A stretch of 64,000 nt of DNA from Sandaracinobacteroides hominis. GTDB lineage: Bacteria; Pseudomonadota; Alphaproteobacteria; Sphingomonadales; Sphingomonadaceae. Below, in pieces: positions 7,095-62,807 of this stretch. Position 1 is the first letter of the stretch, and every line of letters begins with the position of its first letter. Position numbers and translations under genes: made by a program. The stretch covers positions 62,001-126,000 of the forward strand of contig NZ_JADCUC010000002.1 in NCBI RefSeq assembly GCF_016464365.1. Direction: 5' to 3'. The notes below the pieces were generated by a model. That model was not told where the DNA came from. It worked only from the letters and a program-made list of their open reading frames with translations, and did not search any database.

Positions 7095-7111
7095 TCGCCG
7101 CGTGGTGGATA
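7095..7111. promoter_or_regulatory. TATCCG-N5-YGGATA palindrome, site upstream of TonB receptor 1
   Basis: TCGCCGCGTGGTGGATA matches 10 of the 12 fixed positions of the recurring palindrome and starts 160 bp before the receptor ATG. The 16 bases CCGCGTGGTGGATAGC (7098-7113) recur exactly at 44041-44056 in front of methyltransferase B. A separate palindrome TTAGCGCTAA lies just upstream at 7084-7093. Confidence 0.55.
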
Positions 7112-7254
7112 GCCATCACGTAGGCATGGGAAGCGGCATGTAACGCTATAGTTTCTGCGTCGGCGGGTCTGGCCTGCCAAGGGTAGGAAATTTTAGCGTG
7201 GAACGGTCGGCCCACAGAATGGCTGCCCCGCGCCCCATCCAAGGGGTAATAGAG

Positions 7255-9828
7255 ATGACCAAGGCGAACAGGTTTCTTCAGCGTCGCGCACTGGGCTCGG
7301 TTTCGGGTGCGGCGATCCTCTGCACGCTGATGGGCGGCCTTGCGGCGCCTGCTCTTGCCGCCGACGAGGTTGGCGCCAGCGAGGATATCGTGGTTACCGC
7401 GCGGAAGCGCGCGGAAGACATTCAGCGCGTTCCGATCGCCGTGACGGCGCTGACTGCCGCCGACCTCACGGCGCGCAACATCAGCAACTTCAACGATCTG
7501 TCGAACACCACGCCCGGCATTTCGATCACGTCCATCGCCGGCGGCACCGCGCAGAACATCTATATCCGCGGCCTTGCCCCTGCGAACACCGCCAACGACT
7601 TGAACGTCGAGGCAAACGTGGGTGTGTTCATCGACGGCATCTATCAGACCAGCCGCAACACGCTGGACATGATCTCGGTGCTGGATATCGAGCAGATCGA
7701 AATTGCCAAGGGCCCGCAGAGCGCCCTGTTCGGCCGCTCCACTTTTGCCGGCGCGGTCAGCATCAACACGGCGCAGCCGACAGACACGCTGAAGTTCTCC
7801 GGCCAGGCGACGGTCGGCAACGACAAGGATTTCCGCCTGCGCGCAGCGGTTTCGGCGCCGATCACCGATACGCTGTCGGTGCGCGTGGCTGGCGGCTGGC
7901 TCACCTATGACGGTTTCGGAAAGAATGCCGCCAACCCCGACGACAATCTGAACGGGACGGAAAAATGGGCGATCACGGGTGCCGTTCTGTGGCAACCCAC
8001 CGACGAACTGACGGTGAAGCTCGCCGGCTTCATCACCCATTCCGAATCCGACATGTCGGCTGTCAGCCTGACGCCGCTGTCCGAGTACAACTGCGGCACC
8101 ACCAACGTGGCAACCGGCCTGCCCACGCTCTATTGCGGCACGCTTCCGGCCAACCGCACCAGCGACATCACGCCGAACATGCCGAAGACGGTGGCCGAGA
8201 ACAAGCAGGCCTCGCTGGACATCAGCTGGAGCCGCGACGGCATCGCCTTCACCAGCGTCACCGGCTTCACCGCCTCGGAGAACTCGACCTTCAACGACTA
8301 TGACGGCACCTCGCAGGGGACGCTGTTCGGCATCTGCTCGCTGGGTGTCGCCTGCCTTCCGGCCGGGCCATACAACCGCCTGCAGAAGGCGAACCTGCAA
8401 TCGATCAGCCTGGAGATGGTGCGCACCTTCAGCCAGGAATTCCGGATCCAGTCGGATGGCTCGTCGCCCTTCTCGTGGATCACCGGCGCCAGCTATTTCA
8501 ACTCGCGCATTCCCCTGGCCGCCGGCGGCATCGCGGTCGACAACAGCGGCCTTGGCGTCAATGACCGGCTGGTGCAGGTGACGCAGGTTGCCACCCCGGC
8601 CCCCACGGGCTTTGGCGCCTATGAGTTCACCGGCAACCCGTTCCTTGCCAGCGATTACCTGAACAATGGCCTGTCGGGCAGCTATTCGGCGTCGTTCACG
8701 CGGAACTTCTCGATCTTCGGCGCCGTCGGCTATGATTTCGGCACGATCCGGGTGAACGCCGAAGGCCGCTATAACAGCGACCAGAAGCAGGCGCAGGTGT
8801 TCTCGGTTTCCAACCCGCTGTCGCAGCCGGGCGTGAACAAGCACATCGTTGCGGGCGAAGTGCCTGCTGCCGGCGTGTTCCCCGTGGTTGGCCCGAAGTT
8901 CCGCGACACCTTCACCCACTTCGCGCCGCGCTTCACGGTGGACTGGCAGGCGATGGATGATCTCTTCGTCTATGCCTCGGCCGCGAAGGGCTATCGTTCG
9001 GGCGGATTCAACACCGCCAACCCGGTCAGCCCCACGGGCATCCTCGCCGACGAAGTCGCCTATCAGGAAGAATCCAACTGGACCTACGAGCTGGGCTTCA
9101 AGAGCAACTTCTGGGAAAACCGGGTGATGCTGAACGCCTCGGTGTTCCATGTGGACTGGTCGAACGCGCAGGTTTCCGGCTTCACGCAGAACCCGACGGC
9201 AGTGAACCCGGTGCGGATCGTCCGCAACGCCGGCGACATCAAGGCCAATGGCTTTGAAGTTCAGGCCGAAGTCCAGCCGGTGGAGATGTTCAGCTTTGGC
9301 GGCAGCCTCGTCTATTCCGATCCGAAGTTCCAGAAAGGCGCTTATGAAGGCTCGCAGATCACGCAGTGCGTGATCGGCACCGGAGCAACCGCCACGGCCG
9401 CCCCCGGCTGCCCGCCGATCCTCCTGATCAAGAATGCCAATGGTGCGACCGTTGCGGTGCCTTCGCTGGAAGGGCTGCGGCCGCAGCGCTCGGTGAAGCT
9501 GCAGTGGAACCTGCATGCCACCGTGGATGTGCCGATCACCGACGAGTGGAAGGCCAGCGGCAGGGTTGACGTGACCCACACCGGCGAAAGCTATTCGAAC
9601 CTCATCAACACCTCGGCGATGGGCGAGCGGACGTTGACCAACCTGCGTGTCGGCTTCTCCAACGACCGCTTCGATATCTCGGCCTGGGTGAACAACCTGT
9701 TCGACGTCACCTATGTGGCGAACTCGATCAACCAGCCGCGTGCCGGCGTGCCCTTCGCCTTCTCCATCGGCGAGAATTATCTGGGCGAAACCCGCCGCTT
9801 CGGTCTGACCGCCAGCTTCAAATACTGA
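7255..9828 (+). CDS. TonB-dependent outer-membrane receptor 1
   Basis: An 857-residue receptor for energised uptake across the outer membrane. The signal peptide runs to about residue 35 (hydrophobic GAAILCTLMGGLAAPALA, then cleavage before ADE), followed by the TonB box EDIVVTARKRAED and a plug domain (VPIAVTALTAADLTARNI, YIRGLAP, GVFIDGIYQ, IEIAKGPQSALFGRSTFAGAV). A long beta-barrel ends in an aromatic-terminated strand (GLTASFKY). Such receptors in sphingomonads often take up aromatic or lipophilic compounds as well as iron chelates. No siderophore genes are nearby. Start ATG 7255 is chosen because it begins the signal peptide; AAGGGG lies upstream. It is followed by a hairpin and a Tat-exported DUF1838 gene, and preceded by a recurring palindromic site. 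Confidence 0.95.
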   Translation: MTKANRFLQRRALGSVSGAAILCTLMGGLAAPALAADEVGASEDIVVTARKRAEDIQRVPIAVTALTAADLTARNISNFNDLSNTTPGISITSIAGGTAQNIYIRGLAPANTANDLNVEANVGVFIDGIYQTSRNTLDMISVLDIEQIEIAKGPQSALFGRSTFAGAVSINTAQPTDTLKFSGQATVGNDKDFRLRAAVSAPITDTLSVRVAGGWLTYDGFGKNAANPDDNLNGTEKWAITGAVLWQPTDELTVKLAGFITHSESDMSAVSLTPLSEYNCGTTNVATGLPTLYCGTLPANRTSDITPNMPKTVAENKQASLDISWSRDGIAFTSVTGFTASENSTFNDYDGTSQGTLFGICSLGVACLPAGPYNRLQKANLQSISLEMVRTFSQEFRIQSDGSSPFSWITGASYFNSRIPLAAGGIAVDNSGLGVNDRLVQVTQVATPAPTGFGAYEFTGNPFLASDYLNNGLSGSYSASFTRNFSIFGAVGYDFGTIRVNAEGRYNSDQKQAQVFSVSNPLSQPGVNKHIVAGEVPAAGVFPVVGPKFRDTFTHFAPRFTVDWQAMDDLFVYASAAKGYRSGGFNTANPVSPTGILADEVAYQEESNWTYELGFKSNFWENRVMLNASVFHVDWSNAQVSGFTQNPTAVNPVRIVRNAGDIKANGFEVQAEVQPVEMFSFGGSLVYSDPKFQKGAYEGSQITQCVIGTGATATAAPGCPPILLIKNANGATVAVPSLEGLRPQRSVKLQWNLHATVDVPITDEWKASGRVDVTHTGESYSNLINTSAMGERTLTNLRVGFSNDRFDISAWVNNLFDVTYVANSINQPRAGVPFAFSIGENYLGETRRFGLTASFKY

Positions 9829-9907: not shown

Positions 9908-10930
9908 ATGCTGTTCGATACATTCGAGAACATGGCGTCGCGTCGCGGGCTGCTGACAGGGATGGCCGGGATGGGGGCGATGATGGCGGCAGGGCCGGTC
10001 CTTGCCGCGCCGGCGAAAGGCAATATCCGTCCGCTGGACCTGAAGGATCCGCGGGACAATCTTTATGGCTTTGCAAAGCTGTGGGGGACGATCGGCCCGA
10101 AGGCGGTGAAATCCGGATATTATGGCGTGCAATATGCCATCGTCGGCAACCAGCGCGCCAAGCCGCTGTTCGGCTATGCGGGCTTTGGCAACAACCGCAA
10201 CATCCTCCTTCCCGACGGGACGGTGAAGGTGCTGGGGAAAGAGTGCGGCTATTTCACCGACCTCGCCTCGGGCGAGATCATCGACCATTGGGACAATCCG
10301 TGGACGGGCGAGCGCGTCGAGGTGTTCCCGTTCCTGAACGACCGCTGGCGCGGGCATCTGGGGCTGGAGCGCAAGGTGTTCAAGATCGGCGACAGCGAGA
10401 CGACCAACAACGACATGGGCAAGCCCGCTGCCAAGGGTGAGCCGTTCCTGCTGCCGTGGAACCGCATCGGCGACCAGTATCTGCTCGGCTGGGACTATGC
10501 GCATGAATATACCAATCCCGTCACGCCCGAGGGCTGGCCCAAGGCCTCCACGGGCAAGCGCGTCAATCCTTCCGAACATTTCGTGATCTTTACGCCGACT
10601 GCCGAGATCGACGATCGTTCCACCCATACGGCGCGTTTCCACGCCGGCTTCATGCGGCAGGCGCCGTGGTGGCCGTGGATGAAGATGGGGCAGAGCGGCG
10701 TGCCGGGCGTGCTGATGGGACGGATGCACAGCTACAAGATCACCGGCACCGAGGAGGATATCCCGAAGGCAATCCTGAAACGGGTGGAGCGCGACCGCCC
10801 GGACCTGCTGGAAGAGCCGACCGAGGGGCCGGACGAGGGTGTGCGCGGCACGCTGGAAGCCTATGCAGAGGAGGTGCCGCCGGAAACGCCCGGCTATCCG
10901 CGGCCCGGCCGGAACGGAGAGAAGCCCTGA
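9908..10930 (+). CDS. Tat-exported DUF1838 family protein, copy 1
   Basis: A 340-residue protein of uncharacterised family DUF1838. The N-terminus carries a twin-arginine signal (ASRRGLLTGMAGMGAMMAAGPVLAA), predicting folded export to the periplasm. The family core is seen as CGYFTDLASGEIIDHWDNPWTGERVEV around residues 110-140, with an NDRW block after it. Function is unknown. Position after a TonB receptor and overlapping a hydrolase gene (TGATG at 10928-10932) suggests a periplasmic or envelope step in handling the imported compound. A second, more divergent DUF1838 gene, also with a Tat signal, is at 24461-25321. No cofactor motif was recognised. Confidence 0.8.
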   Translation: MLFDTFENMASRRGLLTGMAGMGAMMAAGPVLAAPAKGNIRPLDLKDPRDNLYGFAKLWGTIGPKAVKSGYYGVQYAIVGNQRAKPLFGYAGFGNNRNILLPDGTVKVLGKECGYFTDLASGEIIDHWDNPWTGERVEVFPFLNDRWRGHLGLERKVFKIGDSETTNNDMGKPAAKGEPFLLPWNRIGDQYLLGWDYAHEYTNPVTPEGWPKASTGKRVNPSEHFVIFTPTAEIDDRSTHTARFHAGFMRQAPWWPWMKMGQSGVPGVLMGRMHSYKITGTEEDIPKAILKRVERDRPDLLEEPTEGPDEGVRGTLEAYAEEVPPETPGYPRPGRNGEKP

Positions 10931-15999: not shown

Positions 16000-16509
16000 T
16001 CAGTTCTTCGGCGCGGTGTAGTCGTCCCAGCTCTGCCAGTCGCGGGTGATGAAGCGCTCGTCGATCAGCGTGCGCTGGAAGCAGACGCCGTCCTTGAACC
16101 ACTGCCAGGTGCGGGCGCGGTTCCGGAAGGCCTCGTCGCACTGGATCATTTCATAGAGCGTCAGGCCCGGCTCGTTCTTGCGTTCCCAGAACAGGCAGGA
16201 GGAAAGCTGGTTGTCGTCGGGCTGCATCGCGGCGCACCAGCCCTTGATCAGCTCATTGTCCCACCAGATGCGGCCTTCGCGATAGTCGGCGGGGAAATCG
16301 CGGGTATCGGTGCGGCCGTCATCCCAGAAATAATAGTTGGTCTGGTGATAGCGCTGGACGCCGTTTTCCTCGACCAGCCGGCACAGAAGGCGCGAGCGGT
16401 GCTCGTCCACCAATTTGCCGGTCAAGGCGTCGTAATAGCGATACCAGCCCTCCCAGACGCCCTCGTTCCTGGCGAGTATCGGCATGGCTTCCCGCAGTGT
16501 TTTGGTCAT
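16000..16509 (-). CDS. Small lipocalin-like protein, tentatively DUF3598-type
   Basis: A 169-residue soluble protein without signal peptide. The beginning ARNEGVWEGWYRYYDALTGK, followed by DEHRSRL, YHQTNYYFWDDG and GRIWWDNELIKGW, looks like the beta-barrel strands of lipocalin-like proteins of the DUF3598 kind, rich in Trp and Tyr. The family assignment is from memory of the pattern and is not certain. Function is unknown; binding of a small lipophilic ligand is a reasonable guess. It is the first gene of the minus-strand group running into the serine hydrolase, VOC and AsmA genes, and it is divergent from an MFS importer with a TATCCG palindrome between them. Confidence 0.6.
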   Translation of the reverse strand: MTKTLREAMPILARNEGVWEGWYRYYDALTGKLVDEHRSRLLCRLVEENGVQRYHQTNYYFWDDGRTDTRDFPADYREGRIWWDNELIKGWCAAMQPDDNQLSSCLFWERKNEPGLTLYEMIQCDEAFRNRARTWQWFKDGVCFQRTLIDERFITRDWQSWDDYTAPKN

Positions 16510-16595: not shown

Positions 16596-16612
16596 TATCC
16601 GATTGGCGGATT
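16596..16612. promoter_or_regulatory. TATCCG-N5-YGGATA palindrome, site between lipocalin-like gene and MFS transporter
   Basis: TATCCGATTGGCGGATT matches 11 of 12 fixed positions of the recurring palindrome. It is 74 bp upstream of the transporter ATG and 87 bp upstream of the divergent gene, a good place to control both. Confidence 0.65.
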
Positions 16613-21817: not shown

Positions 21818-21973
21818 GGTCGATCTTCCCTCGATTGGCCCGGCAGTGTGCCTGAGCGGCAGGCGCAGGGCCAGATGCGGCGCCTGGTTCACCACCATGC
21901 GGATAGACCGGGCCGCCGGTTTGCGCGCGCGCGGGCGATGGGCGAGGCTTGGGCAACCATCTGGAGACTCTGC

Positions 21974-24449: not shown

Positions 24450-24460
24450 GGGAGACGAAA

Positions 24461-29751: not shown

Positions 29752-29761
29752 GGGCAAAACG

Positions 29762-50472: not shown

Positions 50473-51149
50473 GCCTGCGCCTCCAGCCAGTCGATGACCG
50501 TCTGCACCGGCTCCACATCGGCATATTTCAGCTGCAGGTCGGTGAGATTGGCATAGTGGTAGCTGGCGTGCTTGTCGGCCGTGGTCTCGATCGGGACTAT
50601 CGTGCGATAGCCGCGGCTGAGGCTGTCCACCGCGGTGGCGCGGACGCAGCCAGAAGTGCTGCCGCCGGTGACGACGACGGTGTCGACGCCGTGCCAGACG
50701 AGGAGGCTTTGCAAGGGCGTTTCGAAGAAGGCCGACGGCATGCGCTTGGTATAGACGGCGTCGTTCGGGTCTATGCGGCAGCGCTCGTCGAACTGGTGGC
50801 GGCGGCTGCCTTCCTTGATGTTCTGCAGCGAATCCGCCGTGTTGGTGCGGGTGCCCCAGACGCCGGCGTCGGAGGCGTCGGCCATATAGGCGACGTGCGT
50901 CCAGATGACGGGCATGCCCCTGGCGCGGGCGAGATCGGAGATTCTGTTGGCATACTCGATCTGCCGGGGATCGGTTTCGTAGGCGGTCTTGAACTCGTCG
51001 ATCCGGGTGTAGGCGTTCTGGAAATCGACGTTGACGACGGCGAGCTTGCGGCCGAACCCGAATTTGGTGCGGGCCGGGTTTGCCATCACCTCCTCGAAGA
51101 TCTGCTTCGCGGTGCGGTCATCCTCGACCATGCGCGTGCCGACGATCAT
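50469..51149 (-). CDS. Isochorismatase-family amidohydrolase, copy 1
   Basis: A 226-residue cysteine hydrolase of the isochorismatase/N-carbamoylsarcosine amidase/maleamate amidase family. The triad is visible: Asp42 (AVVNVDFQNAYT), Lys135 (VYTKRMPSAF) and Cys168 (VVTGGSTSGCVRATAVDSLSRG). The long insert around GVWGTRTNTADSLQNIKEGSRRHQF is typical of N-carbamoylsarcosine-like members. Reaction: hydrolysis of an amide or carbamoyl group with release of ammonia. Coupled by ATGA to the HMG-CoA-lyase-like gene upstream and by GTGA to PuuE-like copy 3 downstream. A second family member is at 55303-55926. Confidence 0.9.
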   Translation of the reverse strand: MIVGTRMVEDDRTAKQIFEEVMANPARTKFGFGRKLAVVNVDFQNAYTRIDEFKTAYETDPRQIEYANRISDLARARGMPVIWTHVAYMADASDAGVWGTRTNTADSLQNIKEGSRRHQFDERCRIDPNDAVYTKRMPSAFFETPLQSLLVWHGVDTVVVTGGSTSGCVRATAVDSLSRGYRTIVPIETTADKHASYHYANLTDLQLKYADVEPVQTVIDWLEAQA

Positions 51150-52099: not shown

Positions 52100-52170
52100 T
52101 TCCGCGGGGCTGGCTGGGAAAGTGCAGCAAATGCGGCGAGGTTCCGCCATCTTATCGGAGAACTGACCGG

Positions 52171-53349
52171 ATGTCGGATAGCAAGCTGCCGCTGGCGGGC
52201 CTGAAGGTGGTGGAACTGACCCATATGGTGATGGGGCCATCGACCGGGCTGATCCTGGCGGACATGGGGGCGGATGTGGTGCGGATCGAGCCGCCGGGCG
52301 GCGACCGCACGCGGCGGCTGCTGGGCTCGGGCGCGGGCTATTTCCCGATGTATAACCGCAACAAGCAGAGCATCTGCCTTGATCTCAAGAAGCCGGCCGG
52401 ACTGGCGGCGGCGAAGCGGCTGGCAGTGGCGGCGGACATCGTGGTGGAGAATTTCCGCCCCGGCACGCTGGAGAAGATGGGGCTGGGCTATGCGGCGCTG
52501 TCTGCGGAGAATCCGCGGCTGATCTATTGTTCGGCGAAGGGGTTTCTTTCCGGCCCCTATGAGGAGCGGGCGGCGCTGGACGAGGTGGCGCAGATGATGG
52601 GCGGGCTTGCCTATATGACCGGGCCTCCGGGTCGGCCCCTGCGCGCCGGCGCGAGCGTGATCGATGTGACCGGCGGGATGTTCGGCGTGGTGGGCGTGCT
52701 GGGGCTGCTGGAGCGGCGGCACCGGACTGGATTGGGCGGCGAGGTGAAGGCTTCGCTGTATGAGACGACGACGTTTTTGGTGGGCCAGCACATGGCGCAG
52801 ATGGCGGTGACCGGGAAGCCGGCGGCGCCGATGCCGGCGCGGATTTCGGCCTGGGCGATCTATGATGTGTTTAACGCGGCGGACGGCCAGCTGTTCGTGG
52901 GGGTGGTGTCCGATGCGCAGTGGCGGGCATTCTGTGCAGGCTTCGGGCTGGAGGCCCTGGGGGCGGATGCCGCGCTTGCCGAGAACAACCAGCGGGTGCA
53001 GGCGCGCGAGCGGATATTGCCCGAGGTGCGAGCGCTGTTTGCCGGGATGACGCTGGCCGAGGCACTGGCGAAGTGCGAGGTGGTGGGTTTGCCCTTTGCA
53101 CCGATTGCGCGGCCCGAGCAGTTGTTTGACGATCCGCATCTGAATGCGGCCGGCGGCCTGGTGGACATGACTCTGCCGGGCGGCGGCGCGGCGCGGTTGC
53201 CGGCCTTGCCGATCGAGGTGGATGGCGAGCGGATGGGCTTGCGGCATGATCTGAAGGCGCCCGGGCAGGATACGGCGGAGATACTGGCCGCGGCTGGGTT
53301 TGTGCCGCATGAGGTGGAGGCCATGCTGGCCAGCGGGGCGGCGGCCTGA
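52171..53349 (+). CDS. Family III (CaiB/BaiF) CoA transferase
   Basis: A 392-residue CoA transferase: GLKVVELTHMVMGPSTGLILADMGADVVRIEPPGGD, YNRNKQSICLDLKKPAG, DIVVENFRPGTLEKMGLGY, catalytic Asp137 in ERAALDEVAQMMGGLAY, and a normal C-terminal domain (VGLPFAPIARPEQLFDDPHLNA). It moves CoA between carboxylic acids, for example from succinyl-CoA to citramalate, itaconate or malate. It starts the plus operon CoA transferase, LeuC-like, LeuD-like (TGATG and ATGA overlaps) and is divergent from the HMG-CoA-lyase-like operon. Together these could activate a hydroxy-diacid and feed it to the lyase. Confidence 0.92.
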   Translation: MSDSKLPLAGLKVVELTHMVMGPSTGLILADMGADVVRIEPPGGDRTRRLLGSGAGYFPMYNRNKQSICLDLKKPAGLAAAKRLAVAADIVVENFRPGTLEKMGLGYAALSAENPRLIYCSAKGFLSGPYEERAALDEVAQMMGGLAYMTGPPGRPLRAGASVIDVTGGMFGVVGVLGLLERRHRTGLGGEVKASLYETTTFLVGQHMAQMAVTGKPAAPMPARISAWAIYDVFNAADGQLFVGVVSDAQWRAFCAGFGLEALGADAALAENNQRVQARERILPEVRALFAGMTLAEALAKCEVVGLPFAPIARPEQLFDDPHLNAAGGLVDMTLPGGGAARLPALPIEVDGERMGLRHDLKAPGQDTAEILAAAGFVPHEVEAMLASGAAA

Positions 53350-54719
53350 TGGCGCGCACCTTGTTCGAGAAGCTTTGGGAGGCGCATTGTGTTGCGCCGC
53401 TGGCGGATGGCGGGCTGATCCTGATCGACCGGATTTTGCTGCACGAGCGGACGGGCGGGGTGGCGCTGAAGAGCCTTGCCGATGCCGGGCGCGTGGTGGC
53501 CGATCCGGCGCATGTGTTTGCGACGATGGACCATGTGGTGGACACATTGCCGGGGCGGACCGACCGGACGATCATGGCGACGGGCACCGATTTCATCCGG
53601 ACGACGCGGGCCGAGGCGCAGGCGGCGGGCATCCGGCTGTTTGATATCGGGGATCCGGGGCAGGGGATCGTACATGTGATTTCGCCCGAGCAGGCGATTG
53701 TCTTGCCAGGGGTGACGCTGGTTTGCCCAGACAGCCATACTTGCTCGCAAGGGGCGCTGGGGGCGCTCGCGTGGGGGATCGGCTCGACCGAGGCGGAGCA
53801 TGCGCTGGCGACGCGGACGCTGCGGGTGGCGAAGCCGAAGACGATGCGGGTGACGGTGACCGGACGGCTGGCTGCCGGGGTGACGGCTAAGGACCTGGCG
53901 CTGTTTATCCTGGCGCGGCACGGATCGGGCGGGGCCAAGGGGCATGTGGTGGAATATGCCGGAGAGGCGGTCGAGGCGCTGGAGATCGAGGCGCGGCTGA
54001 CGCTGTGCAACATGGCGACGGAGTTCTCGGCGTTTACGGCGATCATCGCGCCGGACGCAAAGACCCTTGCCTATCTGGAGGGACGGAATTTCGCGCCGAA
54101 GGGGGCGGATTGGGATGCAGCGGCGGCATACTGGCGAACATTGAAAAGCGATCCGGACGCGCTGTTCGATCGGGAGATTCTGATCGACGCAGCTGAGGTG
54201 TCGCCGATGCTGAGCTGGGGGACGAGCCCGCAGGATTCGGTGGCGGTGGATGGCGTTGTGCCGGCTGCGGCGGAGGCTCGGGCTTTGGAGTATATGGGGC
54301 TCGCCCCCGGGGAGACGTTGGTGGGGTTGCCCATCGATGCCGCCTTTATCGGCAGCTGCACCAACAGCCGCATTTCCGATTTGCGGCGCGCGGCGGCATT
54401 GTTGAGGGGGCGCAAGGTGGCGGCGGGCGTGCGGGCGATCTGCGTGCCGGGATCGACGGCAGTGAAGGCGGCAGCCGAAGCCGAGGGGCTGGACCGTGTA
54501 TTTCTCGACGCCGGATTCGAATGGCGGGAATCGGGCTGCTCGATGTGCTTTTTTGCCGGCGGCGAGAGCTTTGGGCGGCGGGAGCGGGTGGTGACCTCTA
54601 CCAATCGCAACTTCGAAAGCCGGCAGGGGCCGGAAACGCGCTCGCACCTGGCCAGCCCGGAGACGGTGGCCGCGAGCGCCATTGCGGGGTGCATCGCCGA
54701 CCCACGGAGCATCGCATGA
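53349..54719 (+). CDS. LeuC-like aconitase-family hydratase large subunit, divergent copy
   Basis: A 456-residue large subunit of the isopropylmalate isomerase/homoaconitase family. [4Fe-4S] ligands are Cys337 (IGSCTNSR), Cys397 and Cys400 (SGCSMC), with STNRNFESRQG after them. Positions that are nearly invariant in true LeuC differ: HTCSQGALG for [24 protein letters not shown] for the IEAGAR..LVAPD loop, and SMCFFAGGE for SMC-AMN. This suggests a different diacid substrate (citraconate, dimethylmaleate or similar) rather than leucine synthesis. It is coupled to the CoA transferase (TGATG) and to its small subunit (ATGA). Confidence 0.87.
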   Translation: MARTLFEKLWEAHCVAPLADGGLILIDRILLHERTGGVALKSLADAGRVVADPAHVFATMDHVVDTLPGRTDRTIMATGTDFIRTTRAEAQAAGIRLFDIGDPGQGIVHVISPEQAIVLPGVTLVCPDSHTCSQGALGALAWGIGSTEAEHALATRTLRVAKPKTMRVTVTGRLAAGVTAKDLALFILARHGSGGAKGHVVEYAGEAVEALEIEARLTLCNMATEFSAFTAIIAPDAKTLAYLEGRNFAPKGADWDAAAAYWRTLKSDPDALFDREILIDAAEVSPMLSWGTSPQDSVAVDGVVPAAAEARALEYMGLAPGETLVGLPIDAAFIGSCTNSRISDLRRAAALLRGRKVAAGVRAICVPGSTAVKAAAEAEGLDRVFLDAGFEWRESGCSMCFFAGGESFGRRERVVTSTNRNFESRQGPETRSHLASPETVAASAIAGCIADPRSIA

Positions 54720-55315
54720 AGCCCTTCACGACGCTGACGTCGGTGGCCGCGCCCCTGCTGCGCGACAATGTCGATACCGACGCCATCATCCCCTCGCGCG
54801 AGATCAAGTCAGTCTCCAAGGCCGGGCTTGCCGACGGGCTGTTCGCCGGATGGCGCTATACCGAGATCGGCGGGCGCGAGCCGGACCCGGCCTTTGTGCT
54901 GAACCAGCCGGCCTGCGCAGGCGCCGAAATACTGCTCTCAGGCGAGAATTTCGGCTGCGGCTCCAGCCGGGAACATGCCGCCTGGGCGCTGGCGGAATAT
55001 GGCATCCGGGCGATTGTCGCGCCGAGCTTCAACCCGATCTTCCGGGGGAATTGCGTGCGGAACGGAATTGTTCCGGTGGCGTTGCCCGCCGAGGTTGTGG
55101 CCGGGCTGGTCGGCGGGCCGGTGACTGTCGATCTGGAAGCGTGCCGGGTGATTGGGGCGGATGGGGCGAGCCACGGGTTCACGCTGCCCGAGGAAGCGCG
55201 CGAGATGCTGCTCCACGGCTTGGATGCCGTTGACCTCACCCTGCGTCACCGCGAGCAGATCGCAGCCTTTGTCGCTGCGGATCGGCGCAAGCGCGGTTGG
55301 GCCTATCTCGACTGA
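54716..55315 (+). CDS. LeuD-like aconitase-family hydratase small subunit, divergent copy
   Basis: A 199-residue swivel-domain subunit: FTTLTSVAAPLLRDNVDTDAIIPSREI, ILLSGENFGCGSSREHAAWALAEYGIRAIVAPSFNPIFRGNCVRNGIVPV. GENFGCGSSREHA is the family signature that binds the substrate carboxylates. The segment after DTDAI(I)PSR reads EIKSVSKAGLADGLF, where LeuD of the leucine pathway has a longer F(L/K)... segment, in line with altered substrate. It starts in the large-subunit stop codon (ATGA). Its 3' end overlaps the facing isochorismatase gene by 13 bp. Confidence 0.87.
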   Translation: MKPFTTLTSVAAPLLRDNVDTDAIIPSREIKSVSKAGLADGLFAGWRYTEIGGREPDPAFVLNQPACAGAEILLSGENFGCGSSREHAAWALAEYGIRAIVAPSFNPIFRGNCVRNGIVPVALPAEVVAGLVGGPVTVDLEACRVIGADGASHGFTLPEEAREMLLHGLDAVDLTLRHREQIAAFVAADRRKRGWAYLD

Positions 55316-55926
55316 AGGAAGGCGACCGCTTCGGCTTCGCTGACCACGTCGGCGTATTTGGCGTTCATGTCGAAGAGGTTGGCTTCGTGGGGGGCTGGGT
55401 GGCGGTCTCCGCAGGCGTCGGCGATGACGGTGGTGCGGAAGCCGTGGGACATGGAGTCGACGCAGGAGGCGCGGACGCAGCCGCTGGTGGTGAGGCCGGT
55501 GAGCAGGACGTTGTCGACGCCCATCGCCGTCAGCGTGGAGGCGAGCGAGGTGCCGAAGAAGGCACTGGGATATTGTTTGGAGACGATGATTTCGTCGTCG
55601 TGGGGGGCGAGGCCGGGGCCCCAGGCCCCCATCGGGCTGCCTTTCAGGAAGTTCTTGAGGGGGGCGGCCTTTTCGAAGAAGCGGCCGCCGTCGAGGGCCT
55701 GCGGGTGGTAGACGACGTTGGTGAGGATGACCGGGATGTTGGCGGCGCGGGCGGCGGCGCGGACGCGGAGTGCCGAGGCCATGGCGTCTTCGACGCCGGC
55801 GTAGAGGTCGCAGGCGGGGTCGAAATAGCCCATGCAGAAATCGATGAGGAGGAGCGCCGGGCGTTTTCCGAAGCCCACCCGGGTGTTGTAGGCGCGGGCG
55901 TAGTTGGCGGCGAGATCGTCACTCAC
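55303..55926 (-). CDS. Isochorismatase-family amidohydrolase, copy 2
   Basis: A 207-residue cysteine hydrolase. Triad: Asp29 (ALLLIDFCMGYFD), Lys117 (IIVSKQYPSAFFGT) and Cys150 (LLTGLTTSGCVRASCVDSMSHGFRT). It resembles N-carbamoylsarcosine amidase/maleamate amidase-like members and copy 1 at 50469-51149 (shared SGCVRA..VDS.S.G.RT). Predicted to hydrolyse an amide or carbamate with ammonia release. Start is GTG at 55926 in a GTGA overlap with the LeuD-like stop, making it the last gene of the cytochrome c/hydrolase/LeuC/LeuD operon. Its 3' end overlaps the opposing LeuD-like gene by 13 bp. Confidence 0.9.
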   Translation of the reverse strand: MSDDLAANYARAYNTRVGFGKRPALLLIDFCMGYFDPACDLYAGVEDAMASALRVRAAARAANIPVILTNVVYHPQALDGGRFFEKAAPLKNFLKGSPMGAWGPGLAPHDDEIIVSKQYPSAFFGTSLASTLTAMGVDNVLLTGLTTSGCVRASCVDSMSHGFRTTVIADACGDRHPAPHEANLFDMNAKYADVVSEAEAVAFLQSR

Positions 55927-56549
55927 TGGGCGGGTTCGCTTTCGTAGAGCCATGGCTGGGTCTGGCGTTGGGCGGTTTCGAAGGCGGTGATCGCATCGCC
56001 CTGCGTGGCCAGCAGCATCGCGGTTTCGTCCCAGCCGTTCAACAGCGCCTGTTTGCGCTCGGGGTCGATTTCGAAATCGAGGCTGAGGCCGCCGGCGAGG
56101 ATGGTTTGGGCGGGGAGGTCGATGTGGAAGGCGATTCCGGCGGCTGCGGCGGCGCCGAGCGCTGCGACCTTGTCGGCGGGAAGCGTGATGGGGAGGACGC
56201 CGTTGCGGAAGCAGTTGCCGTGGAAGATCTCGCTGTAGCTTTGGGCGATGATGCACCGGATGCCGATGTCGGCCATCGACCAGACGGCATGTTCGCGGCT
56301 GGAGCCGCTGCCGAAATTGGCGCCGGTGACGAGGATGGGGGCGCCGCGGACCTGTGGGCGGTTCAGCGGGAAATCGGGGATTTCCGTGCCGTCGGGCAGG
56401 AAGCGGCGGTCGTGGAAGGCGTAGGTGCCCAGCCCCTCGCGCGCGGTAATGAGGAGGAAGCGGGCCGGGAAGATGATGTCTGTATCGACATTGTCTTCGG
56501 GGAGAAACGCCGCCGGACCGGACAGGGTGGTGAAGGGTTTAAGGCTCAT
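55923..56549 (-). CDS. leuD: Isopropylmalate dehydratase-type small subunit
   Basis: A 208-residue swivel-domain subunit: [95 protein letters not shown]. Length and motifs fit LeuD, and GSGSSREHA is standard. It is coupled by ATGA to its large subunit upstream (56546-56549) and by GTGA to the isochorismatase downstream. No leuA or leuB is nearby, so despite the canonical look it may serve hydration or isomerisation of a methyl-branched diacid in the catabolic pathway. Confidence 0.88.
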
Positions 56550-57964
56550 GCGAGTGTCCGGACGTCTATGCTTGTCAGATCCCTGACGTCTGTGAGGTGG
56601 CCGGCGATTCCGGCGGCGGCGGCCATCACCGGCGACATCAGGTGGGTGCGGGCGCCCGGGCCTTGCCTACCCTCGAAATTGCGGTTGGAGGTGCTGGCGC
56701 TGCGTTCGCCCGGCCGCATGCGATCATCGTTCATGCCGACGCACATCGAGCAGCCGGCGAAGCGCCATTCGAAGCCGGCCTCGGTGAAGATGCGGTCGAG
56801 GCCCTCGCTTTCGGCCTGTGCCCTGGTGGCGGCGGAGCCGGGGACGACGATGGCCTTCACGCCCGCCGCTACGTGGCGGTTGCGGACGATTTCGGCGGCG
56901 GCGCGCAGGTCCTCGATGCGGCTGTTGGTGCAGCTGCCGATGAAGACGTGGGTGATGGCGATGTCGGTGAGCTTCTGGCCCGGCGTCAGGCCCATGTAGC
57001 GGATCGCCTTTTCCGCGGAGGCGCGACGGGCTTCGTCGGGGATCAGGGCGGGATCCGGGACGCGGCCGGTGATGGGGGCGACTTCGTCCGGGGTGGTGCC
57101 CCAGCTGACCTGCGGTTCGATGTCGGCGAGGTCGATGTCGACCTCGCGGTCAAAGACGGCGCCTTCGTCGGTGGGGAGGGTGCGCCACCAGGCCCTGGCG
57201 GCTTCCCATTGGGCGCCCTTCGGCGCGAGGCGGCGGCCTTCGACGAAGGCGAAGCTGGTGTCGTCCGGGGCGACGAGACCGATGCGGCTGCCGGCCTCGA
57301 TCGTCATTTTGCAGAGCGTCATGCGGCCGGCCATCGACAGCGCGCGGATGGCGGGGCCGCTGTATTCGACGGCATAGCCGACCGCGCCCAGCGCCCCGAT
57401 TCTGGCGATGAAGGCGAGCGCAATGTCCTTCGCGGAGACATGCGGGCCGAGGCTGCCGGTGACGTTCACCCGCATCCGCTTTGCCTTCTTCTGCTTCAGG
57501 CACTGGGCGGCCATCACCGTGCTCGATTCGGTGGAGCCGATGCCAAAGGCGAGCGCGCCGAAGGCCCCGTGGGTGGTGGTGTGACTGTCGCCGCAGACGA
57601 TGGTGATTCCCGGCAGCGTCAGCCCCTGTTCCGGGCCGATGACATGGACGATGCCCTGCCCTTCCCCCTGCAGCGCGAGATAGGGGACGTTGAAATCGGC
57701 GGCGTTCCGTTCGAGTTCGGCGACCTGCGAGCGGGCGAGCGGATCGTCGATGCTGCTGCGCTGGCGGGTGGGGACGGCATGGTCCGCCACGGCGAGATGC
57801 GTTTCCGGTCGGCGCAGGCGGCGATGTGCGGCCCGCATCGCTGCGAAGGCCTGCGGGCTGGAGACTTCGTGGACGAGCTGGCGGTCGATGTAGATCAGGG
57901 CCTCGCCGTTGCCGAGGTCGGCGACACAGTGGCTCTCCCAAAGCTTGTCGTAGAGTGTCTTCAT
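56546..57964 (-). CDS. leuC: Isopropylmalate dehydratase-type large subunit
   Basis: A 472-residue LeuC-family protein close to canonical length. It has [39 protein letters not shown], and the Fe-S ligands Cys345 (GSCTNSR), Cys405 and Cys408 ([12 protein letters not shown]), followed by [19 protein letters not shown]. One departure is [16 protein letters not shown] where LeuC has STEVEHVLATQ. Catalyses stereospecific isomerisation or hydration of isopropylmalate-like acids. It lies between an exported alpha/beta hydrolase (ATGA overlap) and LeuD, with no leucine pathway genes around, so a catabolic paralogue is likely. Confidence 0.88.
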
Positions 57965-58923
57965 GGCTTCGGCAGGTTCGGCACGCCGGATTCGATATAG
58001 GCGGCCATGATGTCGGCGAAGCGGTCCGGCACTTCCAGCGGTGGGTAGTGGCCGACGTCGGGCAGGATCACGCGGGAGACTTCGGATTTCGTCAGATACT
58101 GCTGCAGCCGGTCTGCCGCGGGCACCGGCAGCAGCTGGTCGCTGCCACCCCAGATGAGCAGCGCGGGCGTTGTCATGGCCGCGAAGGTGGCGGTCGATTC
58201 CTTGCCGTCCCTGATCTGGGCGGTGAGGGCGATGAGGTTCTTGTTGGGTTCGCGGCGGTTGTAGTCGGCATATTCCTGCCGCTTGGCCGGGCTGATTCGG
58301 GCGGGATCGCCGGAGAAATAGCTGAGGAACTGGTTCCAGTAATCGAGGTCGGTGACCTTGTTCGCCTTGGCGCGCGCCTGCGCGTCGAGGAAGGCCTGCG
58401 GCTGCTTCAGGTGTGTCGTGACGACCGGATCGGAGGGCATGTTGGACAGGATCGCGCGCTCGACCAGATCGGGGCGCCCGGAGGCAAGGAAGGCGATCAG
58501 CGTGCCGCCGCTGGAGACGCCGACGCCGGCTTTGAGTTTCGTCACGCCGAGTTGCTTCAGCAGGCCCTCGGCGATGTCAGTGGGCTTCAGCGTGGCGGCT
58601 GCTTCGTCGGAGATGTTGCCCGAGAGGCCTTGCCCGGCGACGTCGTAGCGGATGATGCGGTAGCGGTCCTTCAGCTTTGCCACCACGCCGTCCCAGGTGC
58701 GCAGGCTGCTTTGCGAGCCGTGCACCATCAGCAGGACCGGGCCCTTGCCTTCATCCTTGTAGTGGATTTCCACTCCGCCGATGTTCGCGAACTTGCTGTC
58801 CTTGTCGGCAAATTTTGCGCGCAGCTGCTCTACCGTGAGGTAGGGCGAGGGTTGCGCCGCCTGCGCGACGGCAGGCGCGGCAACAGACAGGGTGGCAACG
58901 GCCAGCAGGGTGGAAAGGCGCAT
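57961..58923 (-). CDS. Exported alpha/beta hydrolase
   Basis: A 320-residue alpha/beta hydrolase with a Sec signal peptide ([21 protein letters not shown]). The oxyanion region is [18 protein letters not shown], the nucleophile is Ser137 in [16 protein letters not shown] (G-x-S-x-G), the acid is near [10 protein letters not shown], and the catalytic His is in [10 protein letters not shown]. The triad is therefore complete, unlike the hydrolase at 10930-11748. Periplasmic ester, lactone or carbon-carbon bond hydrolysis is expected. Start ATG 58923 overlaps the cytochrome c stop by one base (TGATG); a GTG at 58926 is possible. Second gene of the operon. Confidence 0.9.
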
Positions 58924-59318
58924 CACCTCTTCTTCTTGAGGGTGTTGAGATAGGCGATCACGTCGGCGCGCTTCTTCGGGTCAGGCATGCCGGCGAATAC
59001 CATCTTGGTGCCGGGGATGACCGCGGACGGGCGCTTCAGCCAGGCGTCCATCGTGGTGGCGTCCCAGGTGATGTTGGCCTTTTGCATGGCGGGCGAGAAG
59101 ACGAAGCCGGGGACTTCGCCGGTCTTCGAGCCCATGATGCCCGAGAGATTCGGGCCGACGAGGTTTTTTCCGCCAGGCTCGGTGGTGTGGCAGGCCTTGC
59201 ACTGGATGAAGAGCTTTTGGCCGACGGCGGGATCGCCGGCCGGCACCGCCTGTGCATGCGCGGCACCCGAAAGGGCGGCGGCAGCCAGAACCAGCAGTTT
59301 CAGTCCATTCCGTTGCAT
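58923..59318 (-). CDS. Periplasmic class I cytochrome c
   Basis: A 131-residue monohaem cytochrome: signal peptide (LLVLAAAALSGAAHAQA), haem site C40-K-A-C-H44, GPNLSGIMG after it, and axial Met106 in PGTKMVFAGM. This matches cytochrome c2/c550-type proteins of alphaproteobacteria. It accepts electrons from periplasmic dehydrogenases or the bc1 complex. It is the first gene of an operon with a hydrolase and LeuCD, an unusual partner set. Across the promoter is a Tat-type flavin amine oxidase and, 1.8 kb away, an FAD-linked oxidase, either of which might donate electrons to it. GAGGGAAA precedes ATG 59318. Confidence 0.93.
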   Translation of the reverse strand: MQRNGLKLLVLAAAALSGAAHAQAVPAGDPAVGQKLFIQCKACHTTEPGGKNLVGPNLSGIMGSKTGEVPGFVFSPAMQKANITWDATTMDAWLKRPSAVIPGTKMVFAGMPDPKKRADVIAYLNTLKKKR

Positions 59319-59404: not shown

Positions 59405-59421
59405 TATCCGACTGGTGGGTA
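59405..59421. promoter_or_regulatory. TATCCG-N5-YGGATA palindrome, site between cytochrome c operon and amine oxidase
   Basis: TATCCGACTGGTGGGTA matches 11 of 12 fixed positions. It lies 86 bp from the cytochrome c start and 71 bp from the amine oxidase start. The preceding GATAGCTATC (59399-59408) is a second overlapping palindrome. Confidence 0.62.
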
Positions 59422-59492: not shown

Positions 59493-60920
59493 ATGGACAT
59501 GACGCGGCGCACCTTCACCCTGGCGGCGGCGGCCACTGCCGCCGCCGTGGCAGCCCCGCTGGCAGCGAAGACCGCGAAGATGGACGATGTGCTGGTGCTG
59601 GGCGCCGGTATCTCGGGCCTGAACTCGGCGCGGCAACTGGAAGCGCAGGGGTTGAAGGTGACCGTGCTGGAAGGGCGGCAGCGTGTCGGCGGGCGGATCT
59701 ATACGCTGTTCGATGTCGAGGGGTACCCGGAGATGGGCTTCAACTCGATGGGCGAGGGCTATGGCCGCGGCCTCGATGCGGCCAGCTGGGCCGGGGTGGA
59801 AATGGTCGATGTCGCGCAGCGCTTCTATACGGGCAAGCCGCAGGCGCTGTGGCTGAACGGCAAGCATATGACGCGCGAGGAATGGGCGGCCTTCCCCGGC
59901 AACCCGTTCCCGGCCGAGCTGAAGACGGTGATGCCGTGGGAGCTGTTGAACGCCCTGGTGGCGAAGCATAACCGCCTGACCGACTGGCTGGCCTGGCTGG
60001 ATCCGGCGAACGCCAAGCTGGACATCTCTGTGCACGAATTCCTGAAGACGCAGGGGTTGAGCGATGCCGCCATCCAGCTCGCCTGCGATACCTCGCCCTA
60101 TTACGGCACCAACAGCTATGACGCCTCGGCGCTGATGCTGGAGTTCAACCAGGGCTTCATCGCCACGCAGATCGCTGCCGGCAAGAAGGTGCTGGCCGTG
60201 AAGGGCGGCAATATGAACCTGCCGATCGCCATGGCGAAAAAGCTGAAAGGGCCGGTGCTGCTGGGGAAGGAAGTCGTCGCCATCGACAACCAGCCCGACG
60301 CGGTGGACGTGCGCTGCGCCGATGGCAGCGTCTATCGCGCAAAGCAGCTGATCTGCTCGCTGCCCTTCTCGGCGTTGCGCCATGTGCACATCACGCCCGC
60401 GCTCACCGGCAAGCAGGCGCAAGCCGTTGCCACGCTGCCGTATCAGCCGATCACCATCGCCATGCTGCAGGCGAGCGAACCCTTCTGGGAAACCGACGGC
60501 CTTTCGCCCAACATGTGGACCGACGGCTTCAGCGGCTGGGTCGCCCCGCAACGCTTCGGCGCCAACCCCGCCGATGTCACCGGGCTCATGGTGCAAGGGC
60601 GCGGGAACCTGTCGAAGCAATGGGACCGGCTGGGCAAGGACGCCGCCATGCAGCGCGTGATCGCCACTATCGAAGCCATGCGCCCGTCGGCCAGGGGGAA
60701 GCTGAAAGCCGTGTCCTATCACAGCTGGTCGGGCGAATATTTCAACGGCGGCGACATCGCCTATTACAGCCCCGGACAGATCGCCGCCTTCGTGGCGGAC
60801 ATGGGCGCGGCGGCGGGGCGGATCCACTTCTGCGGTGAGCATCTGGCGACCGGAGCGCGGGGGCTTGAGGGCGCGCTGGAGACTTCGGAGCGGGCGGTTC
60901 TGGAGATTTTGTCGGCCTGA
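59493..60920 (+). CDS. Flavin-containing amine oxidase with Tat signal
   Basis: A 475-residue flavoprotein of the monoamine oxidase/phytoene desaturase fold. The twin-arginine signal is MTRRTFTLAAAATAAAVAAPLAA. The FAD motif DDVLVLGAGISGLNSARQLEAQGLKVTVLEG (GxGxxG 37-42) is followed by RVGGRIYTL, the typical second motif. The C-terminal FAD segment is IHFCGEHLATGARGLEGALETSERAV. It oxidises an amine, or a C-C or C-N bond, with O2 or a cytochrome as acceptor, probably in the periplasm. GGAG lies eight bases before ATG 59493. Its position opposite the cytochrome c gene across a shared palindrome suggests joint regulation and possibly electron transfer to that cytochrome. Confidence 0.9.
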   Translation: MDMTRRTFTLAAAATAAAVAAPLAAKTAKMDDVLVLGAGISGLNSARQLEAQGLKVTVLEGRQRVGGRIYTLFDVEGYPEMGFNSMGEGYGRGLDAASWAGVEMVDVAQRFYTGKPQALWLNGKHMTREEWAAFPGNPFPAELKTVMPWELLNALVAKHNRLTDWLAWLDPANAKLDISVHEFLKTQGLSDAAIQLACDTSPYYGTNSYDASALMLEFNQGFIATQIAAGKKVLAVKGGNMNLPIAMAKKLKGPVLLGKEVVAIDNQPDAVDVRCADGSVYRAKQLICSLPFSALRHVHITPALTGKQAQAVATLPYQPITIAMLQASEPFWETDGLSPNMWTDGFSGWVAPQRFGANPADVTGLMVQGRGNLSKQWDRLGKDAAMQRVIATIEAMRPSARGKLKAVSYHSWSGEYFNGGDIAYYSPGQIAAFVADMGAAAGRIHFCGEHLATGARGLEGALETSERAVLEILSA

Positions 60921-61151: not shown

Positions 61152-62717
61152 TTAAAGTCCAAGTACTCCCGGGTTCATCAGCCCCTTCGGGTCCAGCGCA
61201 GCCTTGATCCCCCTAAGCAGTGTGGCCGCTTCGGGGTCGAGGCGCTGCTGGTAGGGGTAGGCTCGGCCCAGCTGGAAGTGGGAGGCGCCATATTCCTGCA
61301 TCAGCGCGACGGCTTCCTGTTTGAAGCGGTCCGTGAAGGCGCGGGCGGTTGGGTTTTCGGTGTAGGCGGGGAGGGCGGAGAGGTGGGCTTCGCCCAGTGT
61401 CTCGCGGTGGTAGGCGGTGCGGTCATCGGGCCAGTAGAGGGCGATTTCGTAGAGGAAGCCTGAGGGGCCGACCGGGCTGAACATGGTGCCGACCGTCAGC
61501 CCGTGCTGCTGCATTTCCGTCTGCCTCTTGGCGAGGAGAGCTTCCCACGCGTCGTGGAAGGGGACGACCCGGGTCTGGTTGAAGACGCCGTGGATCGGCA
61601 CCCAGCGTTCGCCGGTGGGGCCGAGGATGTTGGCGAGCGGGGCAAACGGCATGGCGCGGACGAAGCTGGGGACGCTGTTGGCGATTTCCCGGCCGTATGG
61701 GTCGACGAGCGCGCGCAGCCGCGTGGCGCGGCCTTCGGCTTCGGCGGGGGTAATGCCCTCGACGATGAAGTGCGCCATGTAGGCGCCGGCGCGCATGGGG
61801 TCTTCGCCGGCGAGCGCCATTTTCAGCAGCTGCTTCAGGCCGGCGACGGGATTGGGGGCCTTGCGGAAGACTTGGGCCGCGATCTTAAGCCTCGCGCCTG
61901 CGCCTTCCTGCCGCGCGATCTGGCCTTGCGACAGGGCGAGATCCAGGCCGAAGTGGCTGTCTTCCAGCCGTTCCTTCTGGATGATGGCGATGGCGGCGTG
62001 GCAGTTGGCGAAGCTGTCGAAGGCGAAGCTGACGGTGACGGCGGCTTCGCGGGCGGCGAGCAGCGGCAGGCGGATGCTGGTCTTGAAGCCGAGAGCGCCG
62101 CAATCCCCGGTGAAGAGGCCGGTGAGATCGGGGCCGTAGTTTCGGGTGGCGGTGCCGATGCCGGTGGTAAGGAGGTCGCCCGAGGCCAGCACGATATCCA
62201 TCGAGAGGACGGATTGGGCGGAGGTGCCGTGGGCGGCGGTGCCGTGGCTGACCGTATTCTGGCTGATGCTGCCGCCGACGGTGGCGGCGATGCCGGAAAA
62301 GGGACCCCAGAAGGGTGTGCGGAGGTTGCGGGCGTCGAGGGCGGCTTTGAGGGCGGCCCAGGTGGTGCCGGCGCCGACGGTGACGACGGCATTGGCTTCG
62401 TCGATGTCGATGCTGCTGAGCGCGGTGAGGTCGAAGAGGATGTGGCCGCCTTGCGGGTAGAGATAGCAGTCGGTGTAGGAGGCGCCGCCGCCGCGCGGGA
62501 CCATGGCGACGCCGGCCTGGGCGCAAAGGCGGACGGCCTGTTGCAGGGCGTCGACGCTGGCGGGGCGGACGATGGCGGCGGGATGGCCGCCGGTGCGGTA
62601 GACGTCGTTCGCCATGTAGTCGAGGCTGGCGGTGTCGGTGCGGACGGCTGCGTCGCCGAGCGCCGCGCGCAGGGTTGCGGCGATGTGGGGCTGGGAGGCA
62701 AGCGGCTGGGCAGTCAT
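61152..62717 (-). CDS. FAD-linked oxidoreductase (VAO/PCMH family)
   Basis: A 521-residue FAD-dependent oxidase. The N-terminal FAD_binding_4 domain contains AAIVRPASVDALQQAVRLCAQAGVAMVPRGGGASYTDCYLYPQGG, VVTVGAGTTWAALKAAL, and ATVGGSISQNTVSHGTAAHGTSAQSVLSMDIVLASGDLL. The C-terminal substrate/cap domain ends LLRGIKAALDPKGLMNPGVLGL, the closing motif of this family. Members oxidise hydroxy-acids, phenols or p-cresol-type compounds. A covalent flavin His or Tyr cannot be assigned from sequence alone. No signal peptide is evident. GGAGACC lies upstream of ATG 62717. It is a single gene divergent from the NdvB-like gene, with a palindromic site between. Confidence 0.85.
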   Translation of the reverse strand: MTAQPLASQPHIAATLRAALGDAAVRTDTASLDYMANDVYRTGGHPAAIVRPASVDALQQAVRLCAQAGVAMVPRGGGASYTDCYLYPQGGHILFDLTALSSIDIDEANAVVTVGAGTTWAALKAALDARNLRTPFWGPFSGIAATVGGSISQNTVSHGTAAHGTSAQSVLSMDIVLASGDLLTTGIGTATRNYGPDLTGLFTGDCGALGFKTSIRLPLLAAREAAVTVSFAFDSFANCHAAIAIIQKERLEDSHFGLDLALSQGQIARQEGAGARLKIAAQVFRKAPNPVAGLKQLLKMALAGEDPMRAGAYMAHFIVEGITPAEAEGRATRLRALVDPYGREIANSVPSFVRAMPFAPLANILGPTGERWVPIHGVFNQTRVVPFHDAWEALLAKRQTEMQQHGLTVGTMFSPVGPSGFLYEIALYWPDDRTAYHRETLGEAHLSALPAYTENPTARAFTDRFKQEAVALMQEYGASHFQLGRAYPYQQRLDPEAATLLRGIKAALDPKGLMNPGVLGL

Positions 62718-62790
62718 TTCAAATGGTCTCCGGGCGTAAGGCGGCAATTGTGCTGCATGGCGTGGCCGTTGGGCCGCTGTCGCCGCCATT

Positions 62791-62807
62791 TCGCCGTCTG
62801 ACGGATA
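62791..62807. promoter_or_regulatory. TATCCG-N5-YGGATA palindrome, site upstream of FAD-linked oxidase
   Basis: TCGCCGTCTGACGGATA matches 10 of 12 fixed positions, 74 bp upstream of the FAD oxidase start and 139 bp from the NdvB-like start. Read on the other strand its core CCGTCAGACGG resembles the site at 46835-46851. Confidence 0.55.

Follow-up and report, generated by a model that had tools for sequence, protein, structure and literature searches.

The DNA analysed here, a stretch of 64,000 nucleotides from Sandaracinobacteroides hominis (contig NZ_JADCUC010000002.1, positions 62,001 to 126,000; hereafter the window), carries genes that appear to form one catabolic cluster. For uptake there are two TonB-dependent receptors (TBDRs), two MFS transporters and one GPH-type transporter. 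The oxidation genes encode FAD monooxygenases, a GlcD/VAO-type oxidase, an amine-oxidase-family flavoenzyme beside a cytochrome c gene, and aldehyde dehydrogenases (AldDHs), while the hydrolases comprise three PuuE-allantoinase-like proteins, a caprolactamase-like HyuAB pair and two isochorismatase-like amidases. The late enzymes are two LeuCD-like hydratases, a methylisocitrate-lyase-like and an HMG-CoA-lyase-like enzyme and a class III CoA-transferase. Among these genes recurs a 17-bp palindrome, TATCCGNCWGNCGGATA with A or T as its central base (consensus of eleven window sites), which would be the operator of the IclR-family regulator encoded in the same cluster (33775-34560), standing before iclR itself and about fourteen other genes that head transcription units.

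An earlier note on this DNA had described the palindrome as TATCCG-N5-YGGATA at nine intergenic sites, seven of them in divergent gaps, and had proposed a cluster-wide regulon. Its mismatch tally was borne out, with one mismatch at 16596, 33681, 39120, 44038 and 59405, two at 7095 and 62791, and three at 46835 and 52083. An iterated palindromic matrix built from window sites settled on ten sites (7095, 16596, 33681, 39120, 44038, 46835, 46898, 52164, 59405 and 62791), with 21889 ranking just below. Eight of the nine original sites are thereby upheld, but 52083 is rejected, as the refined matrix prefers 52164 within the same gap; 46898, 63 bp from 46835, and the weak site 21889 had been overlooked, and the total is now eleven. 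Ten of these are intergenic, and by the gene list used (with the starts of MFS2, TBDR2, CytC, AldDH1 and AldDH2 set by eye) 91% of the window is coding; the eleventh, 52164, overlaps the CoA-transferase gene at its listed start. The count of seven divergent gaps is correct provided that 52164 stands in for 52083, and "cluster-wide" slightly overstates the case, as the HyuAB-lyase-ADH operon (27601-33624) is preceded by none of the eleven sites. Distances from operator to gene start are clustered: 86 bp for the lipocalin-like gene, 77 for IclR, 79 for the GPH transporter, 74 for methyltransferase B, 85 for the HMG-CoA-lyase-like gene (a start inferred from one relative), 77 for the amine oxidase and 73 for the FAD oxidase FADox4. 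The remaining distances are 107 bp (TBDR1), 49 bp (alpha/beta hydrolase ABhyd1), 118 bp (FAD monooxygenase 2) and 15 bp (arylmalonate decarboxylase).

Evidence for the regulon comes from related genomes. The regulator contains HTH_IclR (32.1 bits, cut-off 22) and IclR_C (45 bits, cut-off 24) domains, and its relatives with solved structures, eight distinct sequences at E <= 0.001 (best 5.6e-10), include TtgV. As a query it led to 35 loci in Sphingomonas, Novosphingobium, a Sandarakinorhabdus metagenome-assembled genome (MAG), Niveispirillum and others, the nearest relative, in the Sandarakinorhabdus MAG, being 90% identical. In 33 of the 35, the 150 bp upstream of IclR contain a site of at least 15 bits, scored with the window-site matrix as were all sites in the relatives' loci; the exceptions, L027 and L043, reach 14.1 and 11.3 bits. 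Among 396 genomes of the order, 29 have an IclR match at E <= 1e-70. Thirteen of them, our own genome included, have the regulator at 69-100% identity, and all thirteen have the operator 56-109 bp upstream; the line between orthologue and paralogue was drawn at 69% identity, where a gap extends down to 57%. The other 16 matches (47-57% identity) have a site of at least 15 bits within 200 bp in five cases and a diverged or absent one in eleven. Exact copies of the consensus occur in nine of the 396 genomes, namely in 6/13 with a close IclR versus 3/383 of the others (Fisher p 2.7e-8), and in all six a site adjoins IclR.

Beyond the regulator gene itself, 41 relatives' loci (the 35 from public genomes and six 40-kb stretches, close relatives not thinned) contain 120 sites of at least 15 bits. 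Of these, 116 lie outside the homology-found genes, which cover 73% of the DNA; a site was counted as intragenic only if both ends of the gene match were over 60 bp away from its centre. When sites were assigned to genes up to 450 bp downstream, IclR received 44, AmineOx 23, ABhyd2 19, methyltransferase B and PuuE-like genes 8 each, and FAD monooxygenase 2 seven, the remainder being spread over 20 other families, 15 of which appear once or twice. In the relative L016 the gene of the 169-aa protein next to operator 2 is likewise preceded by a similar site, and a site also stands before FAD monooxygenase 2, the gene that has operator 8 before it in the window. HyuA is preceded by a site in L024 and L030, and the lyase gene in L016, G203 and G314. 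It is thus highly probable from these comparisons that operator and IclR travel together and that genes of several families shared with this cluster are preceded by the operator. There is a real regulon here, and IclR, already named as the best candidate reader, very likely reads the operator, judging by co-occurrence, by placement before cluster genes in relatives, and by a core and spacing of the IclR type.

Two further observations concern the spread of the regulator. In loci L044-L050 an IclR 72-75% identical to ours stands with the same operator. The hosts are Niveispirillum, an Azospirillum-labelled genome and strain AAP38, all outside the sphingomonads, and this suggests that the cluster was transferred between lineages. 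Some of the paralogues at 47-57% identity (L066-L081) have diverged upstream sites, such as TGTTCG-N5-CGAATA in L079 and L080, possibly a joint change of operator and regulator.

How IclR would act at these sites is suggested by the spacing between operator and promoter. Across 67 promoter arms (dereplicated from 72, iclR excluded; 14 of the 72 come from the window and were entered regardless of start distance), the dinucleotide TA stands exactly 37 bp from the operator 13 times, against a mean of 1.5 per offset, and TAG does so in 10 arms, against a mean of 0.67; none of 2000 shuffles, which preserve base content and not dinucleotides, reaches either value. If this TAG is taken as a -10 element, the operator centre lies near -58, a position at which IclR-family activators can sit. 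No conserved TTG position was found within 40 bp of the operator in 80 arms, and together with the fixed TAG spacing this implies that the operator should not cover the core promoter. IclR therefore probably binds about 58 bp upstream of the transcription start and activates with a pathway compound bound, turning on the pathway as a unit, as far as sequence spacing can tell. Against activation it counts that the argument is one of spacing only, and that 15 of 39 iclR promoter rows have a TTG at a distance of 5 bp from the operator, which makes repression there conceivable. The main alternative, a repressor released by a pathway compound, has a precedent in PheR of Sphingobium, a sphingomonad IclR-type regulator that represses a catabolic operon (PMC13273656, in the part of that paper available to us), and is favoured by the position of the operator near a possible -35 box of iclR itself. 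Elsewhere the operator tends to stand 37 bp upstream of the -10-like TAG, and the core promoter, lacking a conserved TTG within 40 bp, should stay uncovered; a general repressor is thus the less likely option, though not a negligible one. It is possible that iclR is autorepressed while the operons are activated.

Other readers of the operator are far less plausible. The TetR regulator (6398-7054), the second choice of the earlier note, lies just upstream of operator 7095, which itself precedes a TBDR gene, and yet a homologue at E <= 1e-25 is found in only 7 of 396 genomes and in two of the thirteen with IclR and operator. Being absent at that threshold from the other eleven, lying on another contig in one of the two genomes that have both, and being itself preceded by none of the eleven sites, TetR was rejected and is very unlikely to be the reader. 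The GntR/UTRA regulator (5468-6370), encoded at the same end of the cluster, is a shade less likely still; no GntR match appears in the listed genes of the 35 + 6 relatives' loci, whole genomes not having been searched for it. The two regulator genes stand back to back at the cluster edge (5468-7054), 27 bp apart.

On the genome scale, the 3.53 Mb sequence has 13 places with at most one mismatch of the first pattern, five of them inside the 64-kb window (binomial p 2.2e-6). The refined pattern at up to two mismatches has 10 places, four in the window (p 2.1e-5), among the matches listed, which are the first 50 of 115 places. A matrix derived from 20 distinct 17-mers upstream of IclR in 32 of 34 loci of other genomes (L016 excluded) gave 5, 7 and 10 window hits at 14, 12 and 10 bits, compared with means of 0.11, 0.25 and 0.65 for 200 permuted matrices (maxima 1, 2 and 5). 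Of the ten found at the 10-bit level, eight are operators, and the 20 kb flanking the window to left and right (L014, L015) contain no site at 8 bits with this matrix.

Several observations weigh against the regulon as drawn. Genome totals lie below the backwards-pattern control for the first pattern (19 rows vs 26) and only modestly above it for the refined one (115 vs 86 per strand), so that in the genome-wide scan local concentration in the window alone stands out. The relatives' sites had been chosen with the window's own matrix, and the relatives' matrix test is therefore not fully independent; its two other hits at 10 bits, 53630 and 12458, are intragenic, and it scores the weak sites 46898, 21889 and 52164 at 6.0, 9.3 and 9.4 bits. 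A sequence-model search of the genome, with 150 of 2099 candidates scored, returned two places, both in the window, at E 0.6 and 2.1, and a whole-genome search found no exact-consensus copy in our own genome. In addition, the window has no operator in front of the HyuAB-lyase-ADH operon. At up to three mismatches of TATCCG-N5-YGGATA the window has 84 matches against 52.8 expected, with 0/100 shuffles reaching 84; the pattern is weak at this level, and hence a lone site matching 9 of 12 positions is no evidence by itself. That all sites are chance near-matches in GC-rich DNA, as those 52.8 expected matches and the genome totals might suggest, was nevertheless rejected and is hardly credible, being contradicted by IclR co-occurrence, promoter placement (116 of 120 sites outside genes), the fixed -10 spacing and the operator before IclR in 13/13 orthologues.

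Table 1. Operators and principal genes of the cluster (window coordinates).
Feature	Coordinates	Strand	Remarks
Operator 1	7095-7111		Upstream of TonB-dependent receptor 1, ~107 bp to guessed start; gap not divergent; TAG at offset 37
Operator 2	16596-16612		Between conserved 169-aa protein gene (-) and MFS transporter (+, start by eye)
Operator 3 (weak)	21889-21905		~71 bp before methyltransferase A guessed start 21817, set from two relatives
Hydantoinase A/B pair	27601-31633	+	Nearest named family caprolactamase, below equivalog cut-offs; no operator before pair
Methylisocitrate-lyase-like C-C lyase	31647-32504	+	KKCGH motif; without own operator in window
Operator 4	33681-33697		77 bp before IclR gene; conserved in relatives
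IclR-family regulator	33775-34560	+	Pfam HTH_IclR and IclR_C above cut-off
AldDH3, FAD monooxygenase 1, PuuE-allantoinase-like (imidase-like) hydrolase	34732-38425	-	
PuuE-like hydrolase of this trio	37364-38425	-	
Arylmalonate decarboxylase/EutA-like gene	38292-39104	-	
Operator 5	39120-39136		Between arylmalonate-decarboxylase/EutA-like gene (-) and TonB-dependent receptor 2 (+)
Operator 6	44038-44054		Between GPH-type transporter (-, 79 bp) and methyltransferase B (+, 74 bp)
Operator 7	46835-46851		49 bp before alpha/beta hydrolase (-); TAG at offset 37
Operator 8	46898-46914		~118 bp before FAD monooxygenase 2 (+), start guessed; operator 7 lies 63 bp away
Two PuuE-like hydrolases, isochorismatase-like amidase, HMG-CoA-lyase-like gene	48674-52078	-	
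Operator 9	52164-52180		85 bp before HMG-CoA-lyase-like gene (-); overlaps CoA-transferase (+) listed start
Class III CoA-transferase, LeuCD-like hydratase 1	52171-55315	+	
Isochorismatase-like amidase (55303-56256), LeuCD-like hydratase 2, alpha/beta hydrolase	55303-58926	-	
Operator 10	59405-59421		Between cytochrome c (-) and amine-oxidase-family flavoenzyme (+, 77 bp)
Amine-oxidase-family flavoenzyme	59499-60920	+	Start from homology
GlcD/VAO-type FAD oxidase	61152-62717	-	Start from homology
Operator 11	62791-62807		73 bp before GlcD/VAO-type FAD oxidase (-)

The operons marked by operators (Table 1) take in uptake genes, flavoenzymes and imidase-like, amidase, LeuCD-like and CoA-lyase-like genes. 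The genes at the operators belong partly to longer runs. The arylmalonate-decarboxylase/EutA-like gene heads a minus-strand run reaching down to 34732, and the cytochrome c gene heads another that includes LeuCD-like 2. AldDH3, FAD monooxygenase 1 and the PuuE-like gene occur together in 28 of 41 relatives' loci, those of the Niveispirillum group not among them. The 18 hits of the methylisocitrate-lyase-like protein include a 2,3-dimethylmalate lyase structure, and the best NCBIfam model of the CoA-transferase is succinate-glutarate CoA-transferase (236 bits vs a cut-off of 750). Neither LeuC-like gene of the window (680 and 526 bits) is the best leuC of the genome, the mark taken here for a LeuCD of leucine biosynthesis, as a higher-scoring one (764 bits) lies on contig C19.

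Several neighbouring genes recur as well. At 20256-21898 and 44129-45723 a methyltransferase gene is followed by a gene for a small conserved protein of 118-121 aa, a pair present in 10 of 41 relatives' loci; in methyltransferase B the methyltransferase domain alone is recognised, and its 121-aa partner matches nothing in Pfam up to E 0.1. The 169-aa protein (16000-16509) is 65-75% identical across six sequences from the Sandarakinorhabdus MAG and Niveispirillum-group loci and matched no Pfam family. Relatives of the two DUF1838 genes (9908-10930 and 24290-25321) recur in several IclR clusters.

The pathway under control is a more interesting question than the regulon itself, whose type is known. 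Judged from gene families, there is about an even chance that the cluster catabolises a substituted cyclic imide. The substrate would be imported through the TBDRs and oxidised by flavoenzymes to the imide, which the PuuE-like and isochorismatase-like hydrolases could open to a diacid. LeuCD-like enzymes would then hydrate the diacid, and the product might be split to central metabolites either by the methylisocitrate-lyase-like enzyme or by the CoA-transferase together with the HMG-CoA-lyase-like enzyme. In the 40-kb stretches of the relatives, the LeuCD-2 and lyase module is present in G203, and in G200 its place is taken by the module of LeuCD-1, CoA-transferase and HMG-CoA-lyase-like gene; because of this exchange the two modules look like alternative means of cleaving the same kind of hydroxy-diacid. 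It speaks against the imide route that its steps are drawn from family names, mostly below equivalog cut-offs. Among the matches listed, titles and abstract starts held no account of the pathway or the regulator.

Two known catabolic routes were considered and set aside. Nicotine or nicotinate degradation, prompted by the maleate-isomerase-like (AMDase/EutA), isochorismatase-like and amine-oxidase genes, leaves the three imidase-like hydrolases and the methylisocitrate-lyase-like enzyme unexplained. Reconstituted riboflavin degradation draws on P450, xanthine oxidase and Rieske dioxygenase enzymes (PMC12746152, in the part available to us), and was rejected as no P450 or Rieske family was found among the scanned window ORFs.

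A more specific and rather doubtful proposal is that the regulon controls the use of oligopyrroles, that is, breakdown products of chlorophyll, heme or bilins, with IclR perhaps sensing a pathway compound. Oxidation of formylpyrrole units would give alkylated maleimides, hematinic acid among them; ring opening to dialkylmaleates, hydration and cleavage would follow, with pyruvate and glutarate as one possible pair of products. Such a route would suit the gene set of imidase-like, amidase and LeuCD-like enzymes together with the methylisocitrate-lyase-like and succinate-glutarate CoA-transferase-like ones; hematinic acid would be expected to yield pyruvate and glutarate through this chemistry. 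Hematinic acid has been reported in senescent leaves and lake sediments (PMC7318184, in the part accessible to us). Counting against a tetrapyrrole source, heme oxygenase (PF01126), which classical heme degradation would call for, has no match in our own genome, in a search that was positive in 3 of 14 control genomes.

The eleven operators link many transcription units of one catabolic cluster and show operon membership. The combination of IclR and operator is now known from Sphingomonas, Novosphingobium, the Sandarakinorhabdus MAG, Niveispirillum and an Azospirillum-labelled genome. Operator promoters provide a ready reporter for an inducer search, and the inducer would reveal what the cluster degrades.

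Several known systems bear comparison with the pathway or the regulator. In a branch of nicotinate fermentation, dimethylmaleate hydratase is followed by 2,3-dimethylmalate lyase. The cluster likewise has a LeuCD-like hydratase and then a lyase of the isocitrate-lyase superfamily, but differs in its imidase-like, amidase and CoA-lyase genes and in its occurrence in sphingomonads. The nearest NCBIfam model of the regulator is PRK09834, presumably MhpR, at 153.5 bits, below the equivalog cut-off of 299, and the genes here differ from those of that system. Group 1 IclR operators are described as GKTYCRYW3-4RYGRAMC, with 18-22 nt between tandem sites (Suvorova and Gelfand 2021, PMC8222616, in the part available to us, as for the following comparisons with it). 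The operator here is likewise a 17-bp odd palindrome with the core TYCR...YGRA, and its nearest subgroup is TGTYCRYW3RYGRACA. Thus the TYCR/YGRA core and the 17-bp frame are matched, while the outer G/C and the W3 centre are not: the centre here is C-W-G instead of three A/T, and the second outer base is mostly A (TAT...ATA). Novosphingobium and Niveispirillum are absent from the main text of that study. Around 115 dereplicated sites, the window included, tandem partners of at least 4 bits number 11 at the 20-nt offset and 8 at 21 nt (19 vs about 0.8 expected, at about 0.19 per signed offset and with both-strong pairs counted twice), and the next commonest offset is 52 nt with six cases. This spacing falls within the 18-22 nt of group 1. 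Nearly all the partners at 20-21 nt are in relatives; in the window operator 4 alone has one, a weak copy of 5.5 bits 20 nt upstream. Among sphingomonad regulators, PheR of Sphingobium sp. SHPJ-2 is likewise IclR-type, serves a catabolic cluster and affects TBDR genes, but is reported to repress, through a site with GCAACG core and a footprint of 44 bp from -21 to +23, whereas the operator here is another palindrome, placed upstream (PMC13273656, in its available part). PbaR of Sphingobium wenxiniae, in the part of its description available to us, has another operator sequence and one dioxygenase cluster, and is likewise a sphingomonad IclR-type regulator, acting as the activator of a catabolic cluster.

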